From Chloroflexota bacterium (lineage in GTDB: Bacteria; Chloroflexota; Dormibacteria; Dormibacterales; Dormibacteraceae), in assembly GCA_005879985.1 (NCBI GenBank), contig VBIA01000166.1, positions 1-32,191 of the forward strand: a stretch of 32,191 nt of DNA, written 5' to 3'. Each line of letters begins with the position of its first letter. Position 1 is the first letter of the stretch. The translations under genes and the position numbers were made by a program. The notes beneath the pieces were generated by a model. That model was not told where the DNA came from. It did not search any database and was given only the letters and a program-made list of their open reading frames with translations. Shown in pieces: positions 2-1,635 of the stretch.

Positions 2-94
2 TCGACGCTGGAGCAGGTCTTCGACCCATGGGCGGGCCTGGAGAACACCGACCTGGCCTTCGAGCGACTCTCCCTCGGAGTGAAGACCGCTTGA
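2..94 (+). CDS. purB: C-terminal fragment, probably adenylosuccinate lyase (PurB)
   Basis: Open frame from the window edge, STLEQVFDPWAGLENTDLAFERLSLGVKTA*, resembles a PurB C-terminus and lies directly upstream of purC; only 30 residues visible. Confidence 0.5.
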   Translation, partial: STLEQVFDPWAGLENTDLAFERLSLGVKTA

Positions 95-281
95 TCCGGC
101 GATCCCGGCCGGAGGCCCTCGCCGGATCTTCGGGGCCCATGCGACCCATCTTCGGGTTCAGCGGCTCCGCTGCTCGCTCTCGCAGTTCTCCAATGCGTTC
201 GCTCCGCTGCTCGCCGCTTCACCCGAATCTGAGCCCCCTGGATCCCCGAATCTCTCGTCGAGGTCTCCTGCCGTGATCGCC
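92..281 (+). repeat. Copy 1 of ~182-190 bp intergenic element (purB/purC gap)
   Basis: Aligns without gaps to 1191..1380 at an offset of exactly 1099 bp, about 22 mismatches in 190 by hand count; runs from the purB stop TGA to the purC start GTGATCGC. Confidence 0.93.
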
Positions 282-1193
282 GGTCCCGCGGTCAGCAACA
301 CGGAGCTGCCGCTGAAGCTTTTCGCGCGCGGCAAGGTGCGCGACACGTACGAGCTGCCCGACAACCAGCTGCTGATGGTTGCGACCGACCGGCTCTCGGC
401 GTTCGATCACGTGCTGCCCACCGGCATCCCCGACCGCGGCAAGGTGCTGACCCAGCTGTCGATCTTCTGGTTCTCGCAGACGCACACGTTCCAGGAGAAC
501 CACCTCGTGTCGGGCATGGTCCCCGACCTGCCCGCCGCCCTTCGCGACCACCGCGAAGAGCTCGCCGGCCGATTCATGATCGTGCGCAAGGCCAAGCGCA
601 TCGACTTCGAGTGCGTCGTCCGCGGCTACCTTGCCGGGAGCGCGTGGAAGGAGTACGAGAAGTCGCACACGCTGGCCGGCGAGGAGATGCCACCCGGCCT
701 GCGGCAGAGCGAGAAGCTGGCGTATCCGATCTTTTCGCCCGCGACCAAGGCCGAAACCGGCCACGACGAGAACATCACGTACGCGCAGCTGAAGAAGGAG
801 CTCGGCGACGACCTGGCGCAGAAGCTGCGCGACGCAAGCCTCGAGCTTTACAAGCACGCGTCGCAGCACGCGGAGAGGCGCGGCATCATACTGGCCGACA
901 CCAAGTTCGAGTTCGGCCAGATCGACGACGAGCTCATTCTCATCGACGAGGTCCTCACGCCCGACAGCTCGCGGTTCTGGGACGCGGTCACCTACGGCGT
1001 AGGCACGACCCCCGACTCGTACGACAAGCAGTTCGTGCGCGACTGGCTCACGCGCTCGGGCTGGGACAAGGAGTCCGATCCACCGGCCCTGCCGCCCGAG
1101 ATCGTCGCCCAGACCCGCGAGCGCTACCTCACCGCGTATCACCGCCTCGTGGGCAAGCCCCTCTTTCCGAAGAAGCCGAGGAACGAAAAATGA
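273..1193 (+). CDS. purC: Phosphoribosylaminoimidazole-succinocarboxamide synthase
   Basis: KLFARGKVRDTYELPDNQLLMVATDRLSAFDHVLPTGIPDRGKVLTQLS; ILADTKFEFG; LIDEVLTPDSSRFW - SAICAR synthetase motifs; GTG start. Confidence 0.97.
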   Translation: MIAGPAVSNTELPLKLFARGKVRDTYELPDNQLLMVATDRLSAFDHVLPTGIPDRGKVLTQLSIFWFSQTHTFQENHLVSGMVPDLPAALRDHREELAGRFMIVRKAKRIDFECVVRGYLAGSAWKEYEKSHTLAGEEMPPGLRQSEKLAYPIFSPATKAETGHDENITYAQLKKELGDDLAQKLRDASLELYKHASQHAERRGIILADTKFEFGQIDDELILIDEVLTPDSSRFWDAVTYGVGTTPDSYDKQFVRDWLTRSGWDKESDPPALPPEIVAQTRERYLTAYHRLVGKPLFPKKPRNEK

Positions 1194-1380
1194 TTTGGCG
1201 ATCCCGTCCCGAGCCCCTCGACGGAGCTTCGGCGCCCATGCGGCCCATCTTCGGGCTCAGCGGCTCCGCTGCTCGCTTACGCAGTTCTCCAATGCGCTCG
1301 CTCCGCTGCTCGCCGCTTCGTCCGAATCTGGGCCACCTGGATCGCCGAATCTCTCGCCGAGGTCTCGGGACGTGATCGCG
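1191..1380 (+). repeat. Copy 2 of ~182-190 bp intergenic element (purC/purS gap)
   Basis: Ungapped match to 92..281; runs from the purC stop TGA to the purS start GTGATCGC. Confidence 0.93.
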
Positions 1381-1635
1381 CGAATAGTCGTGGTGCCGAA
1401 ACCGGTCGTCAACGACCCGCAGGGGGTCACGGTCCGGCAGGGTCTCGCGTTGCTGGGCTTCGGTGAGGTCACCGAGGTCCGCGTCGGCAAGTACATCGAG
1501 GTCAGGCTGGACGCGACCTCCGAGCGCGCGGCGCGCGAGCGCGTCGACGCGATGTGCAGCCGGCTGCTCGCCAACCATGTGATCGAGGACTACCACTTCG
1601 AGCTCGAGCACGAGAGCAAGGGCGCGATGCGATGA
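1372..1635 (+). CDS. purS: Phosphoribosylformylglycinamidine synthase subunit PurS
   Basis: GTG start; [46 protein letters not shown], 87 aa, followed by purQ with ATGA overlap. Confidence 0.95.

Follow-up and report, generated by a model that had tools for sequence, protein, structure and literature searches.

A dispersed, probably MITE-like repeat with a strand-polar structured core at gene stop/start overlaps in Dormibacteraceae (Chloroflexota)

Small bacterial MITE-like repeats of 100-200 bp include ERIC/RU-1, RU-2, RU-3 and NEMIS (PMC2229807, PMC2759123, PMC10969869). They have no transposase, are dispersed at gene boundaries and sometimes have open frames running through them, features shared by the element described here. 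The element was found in a 32,191-nucleotide stretch of DNA from a bacterium of the Dormibacteraceae, in the soil-bacterial group Dormibacteria (GenBank assembly GCA_005879985.1, contig VBIA01000166.1), the whole of which is referred to as the window. It appears there as a repeat of 189 nt at 92-280 and 1191-1379, the two copies being 88% identical. A first-pass annotation had noted compensatory changes between the copies, and its quoted letters and coordinates are all correct when checked against the sequence: a closing stem pairs GGCCGGAG (107-114) with CTCCTGCC (265-272) in copy 1 and GTCCCGAG (1206-1213) with CTCGGGAC (1364-1371) in copy 2, and a second stem in copy 1 pairs TTCGGGTTCAGCGGC (151-165) with GCCGCTTCACCCGAA (213-227). 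The three double changes that it reported are genuine (108-271, G-C to T-A; 111-268, G-C to C-G; 157-221, T-A to C-G), while pair 156-222 differs by a one-sided change, to G.U. The predicted folds have energies of -96.5 kcal/mol for copy 1 (z -5.4 versus dinucleotide shuffles) and -106.7 kcal/mol for copy 2 (z -7.5). The features of the locus are as follows.

92..283, minus (folded strand): element copy 1 in the purB/purC interval; repeat 92-280, inverted arms reaching 96-283; hairpin, lower in energy on minus
119-263, minus: match of copy 1 to covariance model R1, 126.1 bits
91..276, plus: open frame across copy 1; begins with a TTG that overlaps the TGA stop of purB (92-94), runs for 61 codons and ends in a TGA that overlaps the GTG start of purC
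92..95 (left) and 274-277 (right), plus: TGAT, apparent 4-bp target duplication of copy 1, from the sequence; empty sites read NTGATCGC
98..104, plus: GGCGATC, end of the copy 1 left arm; reverse complement of GATCGCC at 275-281 (first purC codons), 7/7
273..1193, plus: purC, recognised by NCBIfam (399 bits, cut-off 251); its GTG start lies at copy 1's right end
1191..1382, minus (folded strand): element copy 2 in the purC/purS interval; repeat 1191-1379; empty site AAAAATGATCGCGCGAAT in sister genome G001
1218-1362, minus: match of copy 2 to model R1, 137.6 bits
1190..1375, plus: open frame across copy 2; begins with an ATG that overlaps the TGA stop of purC (1191-1193), runs for 61 codons and ends in a TGA that overlaps the GTG start of purS
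1191..1194 (left) and 1373-1376 (right), plus: TGAT, apparent 4-bp target duplication of copy 2, from the filled site versus the empty site in G001
1197..1203, plus: GGCGATC, end of the copy 2 left arm; complementary to GATCGCG at 1374-1380 (first purS codons), 6/7; codons already in the empty site
1372..1635, plus: purS, recognised by NCBIfam (95.6 bits, cut-off 75); its GTG start lies at copy 2's right end

The repeat belongs to a dispersed family. BLAST placed it at 32 positions in the window's own genome (G000; 2.85 Mb in 235 contigs) and covariance model R1 at 29, and the same model detected the element in 39 of 42 genomes of the family, with up to 51 copies per genome. In a sample of 201 genomes from across the phylum, 24 contained matches to R1, including weaker relatives of the element in far families, with at least 10 copies in one genome; copy numbers in this sample are lower bounds and covariance-model E-values are rough. 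What stays recognisable in remote relatives is the apex of the hairpin. A 22-nt core pattern was found in 87 stretches of one-per-species genomes, all in records of Dormibacteria-type or 'Chloroflexi' MAGs, and was unmatched in viral contigs; at L135 no element surrounds the pattern, which is probably a chance match there. As expected of MITEs, the elements are small (about 180-225 bp), present in many dispersed copies and devoid of a transposase of their own. Their neighbours are mutually unrelated (glycyl- and cysteinyl-tRNA synthetase, pntB, apt, an ABC transporter and others; all except the pur genes were named by eye from sequence) and include convergent genes, as called in these fragmentary MAGs with a home-made hexamer model that recovered the pur genes. 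At six loci (L012, L013, L015, L017, L019 and L020) the stem has an additional hairpin module, ctggggtccccgtggcgcagccacgggagtggcccc, at fixed positions. On a 47-kb contig of G000 (C39), L002:19-207 is 99% identical to window copy 1 and has the same purB and purC flanks; it lies at a contig end and reflects strain mixture or assembly redundancy. One genome of the same family, G012, has no element and, unlike its relatives, 119 TnpB-type and 13 Y1 transposase matches.

Comparison of filled and empty sites shows that the repeat is mobile. Most relatives have no element at purB-purC or purC-purS, where the genes overlap by 4 nt (NTGA), as in GGTGATCGCGG and GATGATTGCGCG. The purC site is filled in G000, G001 and G051 and the purS site in G000, G055, G023, G020 and G043; at the purS junction G001 reads AAAAATGATCGCGCGAAT, and the window reads AAAAATGAT, the element, and then TGATCGCGCGAAT. 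Similarly, the apt site is filled in G018 and G049, and TATGAC runs uninterrupted in related species. G044 retains element remnants at purC (32 nt) and at apt, and three different loci in the window's genome (L021, L022 and L023) are 98-99% identical over 180 bp. Empty sites in relatives (G001 and others) are accompanied by an apparent target duplication, as in MITEs; it has the form TGAN, with the fourth base equal in 12 of 20 copies. For the convergent-gene copy at glycyl-tRNA synthetase the neighbours in relatives are not syntenic, hence there is no empty-site comparison. The filled pur and apt sites look like independent, recent insertions at recurring sites and not like an ancestral regulator. 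Two other pur loci bear mention: the purC-purS junction of L151 (G048) has a 112-nt gap ending in GAGGTCTCCGAGGATGATCGCG that looks like a decayed hairpin, or another kind of hairpin, inserted at this position, and L297:4993-5134 is one more copy, within the G020 pur operon, flanked by apparent purL and purF.

Element ends coincide with stop codons or with gene stop/start overlaps. Among genes running into the left end, 55 of 71 stop within the element end, as do 30 of 38 at the right end. In the operon copies (purC, purS, apt and others; 21 copies, a class defined by the upstream stop), the mRNA strand keeps an open frame that links NTGA, at the upstream stop, to GTGA, at the downstream start. 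This frame is open in 21/21 copies from the overlap with the upstream stop (NTGA in 20/21) across the hairpin, and in 16/21 it ends 16 nt beyond the core, in a TGA overlapping a start codon (GTG or ATG). The cores of all 21 have a length of 1 mod 3 (130, 133, 151, 154, 166 or 175). Such conservation of frame and length would preserve translational coupling: ribosomes would cross operon copies through stop-to-start re-initiation, and an insertion would consequently leave coupling unbroken. The operon copies may thereby illustrate that insertion of a mobile element into a gene overlap of 4 nt can leave translation coupled, in the order ATGA, open hairpin and GTGA. The left arm has an outer stretch of 7 nt that mirrors the opening codons of the gene that follows, matching at a mean of 6.45 of 7 positions in 20 copies (several of them orthologues, and so not all independent) compared with 3.84 (maximum 5.05) for shuffled partners. 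As the arm-matching codons of purS and apt are present in empty sites, the target sequence predates insertion, and the target-mirroring arm raises a testable question of insertion-site choice.

From two sequences, the first-pass annotation had suggested selection on RNA or cruciform structure; covariation and strand-specific wobble pairs both give strong support to selection on a single-stranded fold. Homologues collected as it had proposed gave an alignment (A2) of 55 diverse cores, all taken in the minus-strand orientation of the element, in which 95.8% of cells are paired and 26 of 47 pairs show double changes. The 201 double-change cells lie far above the 54 (sd 8) obtained in shuffles, in which phylogeny is not modelled and of which 0/500 reach 201, and the 6-32 obtained with slid partners. 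Pair 38-119, for example, is G-C in 29 cores, C-G in 16 and U-A in 10, and the covariation overall is as dense as in known structured RNAs. The folded structure proposed earlier had been drawn on the weaker strand, the opposite strand folding better in every copy tested: RNAfold energies are lower on the minus strand in 107/107 copies (means of -122.7 kcal/mol for minus and -101.1 for plus; random windows, about -79), and DNA parameters agree. With the structure held fixed, the minus strand has 240 G.U versus 16 A.C cells, a comparison of wobble pairs between the two strands that reveals which is selected, and the minus-strand preference extends to 11/12 remote relatives. The same strand is selected whatever the direction of the flanking genes, and thus a sense-mRNA role, a cruciform, arm-to-arm correction and strand-biased deamination explain the pattern poorly; the cruciform, previously offered as an alternative, is disfavoured because it would not favour G.U on just one strand. 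Selection acting on one folded single strand, either RNA or ssDNA, would explain this polarity. The selected fold is a rod-like hairpin with conserved internal loops that, in our reading of the sequence, can be written as tandem G.A pairs, which are possible in both RNA and ssDNA. In 40 regions, each 10-20 kb long, neighbouring genes lie mostly on the strand opposite to the folded one (coding fraction 0.325, p = 7e-7), a bias that fits counter-selection of strong hairpins in mRNA. Third-position GC skew gave no signal of a replication-strand bias, the skew being too weak to tell.

A link to an insertion sequence was found for one subfamily, whose members end in TAGCAGGCYGCTGAAAAAG with TA at both ends. 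A search with this end led to G034, a genome of another family, where two inverted copies 1227 bp apart surround a transposase gene of the IS5 family (247 bits, cut-off 140) that carries DUF772 and DDE_Tnp_1. Among 21 loci carrying the TAGCAGGCYGCTGAAAAAG end, R1 matched a core in 17, so core-bearing elements lie between IS5-type ends in the manner of MITEs. G034 was the only genome in which the complete IS5 element turned up, and the core was not found in that IS itself. Terminal repeats shared with an autonomous transposon, with an IS5-type transposase between them, were thus seen for the TAGCAGG subfamily only; the route of the window's two copies is less certain, since they carry other ends and an apparent duplication of TGAN, not TA. 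By eye, the commoner end TAGAGGCGCGGCCGAAAAG appears to resemble the IS end. A 70-bp stretch in G000 (L359:1501-1570, contig C75) contains little beyond TAGCAGG ends and no core, and is an internal deletion derivative. Other candidate mobilisers were considered and rejected: the occurrence of IS110 is uncorrelated with the element, and RAYT/IS200, reverse transcriptase and TnpB are absent or uncorrelated. The reverse transcriptase expected of a retroelement (PF00078) is absent from G000 and most element-rich relatives, these MAGs being incomplete, and inspection by eye of the genes between paired copies revealed no transposase-like gene.

These data bear on several readings of the repeat. The first-pass annotation had suggested a structured RNA at purC/purS, to be probed in the pur mRNA with candidate ligands. 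One such reading is a cis-acting riboswitch or attenuator of the purine genes. A stable hairpin is present, with copies at purC and purS and, in other species, at apt and purF; however, the element lies beside dozens of unrelated genes, convergent ones too, and is tied to no single pathway, most sister species have empty purC and purS sites, the selected fold is antisense to the pur mRNA, and strict and relaxed searches of Rfam matched no family. We consider this reading very improbable. The repeat, dispersed, mobile and folding on the strand opposite to the pur mRNA, is instead best read as a new structured mobile element and not as a purine-sensing RNA. Equally hard to credit is a small protein gene encoding a conserved arginine-rich peptide of about 60 residues, even though the frame is open in every operon copy and has a recognisable consensus: conservation tracks base pairing, and the other 87 copies are held to no one length class (37, 30 and 20 in the three core-length classes; 37/87 are 1 mod 3), their three forward frames being open about equally (57, 58 and 64 of 87). 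That each copy yields a minus-strand noncoding RNA with a local host function, retained by selection, is doubtful, if less so. The covariation is typical of structured RNA, and in orthologous copy pairs double changes keep a pair in 58 cases and break one in 20 (single changes, 51 kept and 55 broken), counts that serve as support only, because some pairs may be re-insertions. Against it, site occupancy is patchy among species and the fold usually lies antisense to neighbouring genes.

Somewhat better placed, but still unlikely, is a hairpin transposon that moves as folded ssDNA, its minus strand recognised by a putative HUH-type or other enzyme and its 7-nt arm pairing with the target to guide insertion. 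This would account for a strand-specific fold in every copy, DNA parameters included, for an arm complementary to codons that are present in empty sites, and for outer arms that vary freely yet stay paired. It sits poorly with the subfamily that has IS5-type ends and TA sites, with the missing replication-strand signal (a weak test), and with the transposase content of element-rich genomes: Y1 transposase (PF01797) is absent from G000 and all other element-bearing family relatives searched, and TnpB from nearly all, albeit in incomplete assemblies. Taken together, our analysis favours, with a probability of roughly 0.8, a MITE-like mobile element that is non-autonomous, about 180-225 bp long and built around a structured core of marked strand polarity, with an IS5 link for one subfamily. 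An IS5-type transposase would move such elements in trans, and the folded single strand, RNA or ssDNA, would serve the element itself and not purine regulation. A plain MITE needs no strand-specific fold, and the MITE reading therefore leaves the strand-specific core unaccounted for. A more speculative proposal, to which we give only a small chance, is a phylum-wide selfish element whose mobility depends on the conserved folded single strand; its variable 7-nt arm would pair with the target, guiding or splinting insertion at stop/start overlaps, and the element would then represent an undescribed type of small nucleic-acid-guided transposon.

As far as searches of Rfam and the open literature show, the repeat family is undescribed, in a poorly studied phylum; no literature was found on Dormibacter repeats or on MITEs with covarying RNA. 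It also warns against taking compensatory changes as a sure sign of a riboswitch when a repeated intergenic hairpin lies next to a biosynthetic operon. Rickettsia palindromic elements are likewise palindromic and mobile with a translatable open frame, whereas the present element lies between genes rather than within them (1/108 copies was called inside a gene, and in-frame insertion within protein genes is not its pattern) and keeps its frame only where two genes overlap. REP/REPIN sequences with RAYT, and IS200/IS605, are also dispersed hairpins with strand-specific hairpin recognition, but our element is much longer and its element-rich genomes have no Y1 transposase. With IS5-family insertion sequences and their MITEs, the core-bearing subfamily shares the ends TAGCAGG..GCTGAAAAAG and TA sites of a complete IS5-family element, while the window copies have other ends and an apparent TGAT duplication, and the IS lacks the core. 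ERIC, RU-2, RU-3, NEMIS and RPE are described in the consulted parts of the literature (PMC2229807, PMC2759123, PMC10969869) as having hairpin transcripts and target duplications, features that our element would share, along with TA ends in one of its subfamilies; those parts contain no example of strand-polar covariation, stop/start bridging or a target-mirroring arm. Relative to ERIC, RU and NEMIS as portrayed there, the element is GC-rich, with strand-polar covariation and conserved internal loops, it forms a fixed-frame bridge of stop/start overlaps with an outer arm that mirrors its target, and it is spread over several families of Chloroflexota.
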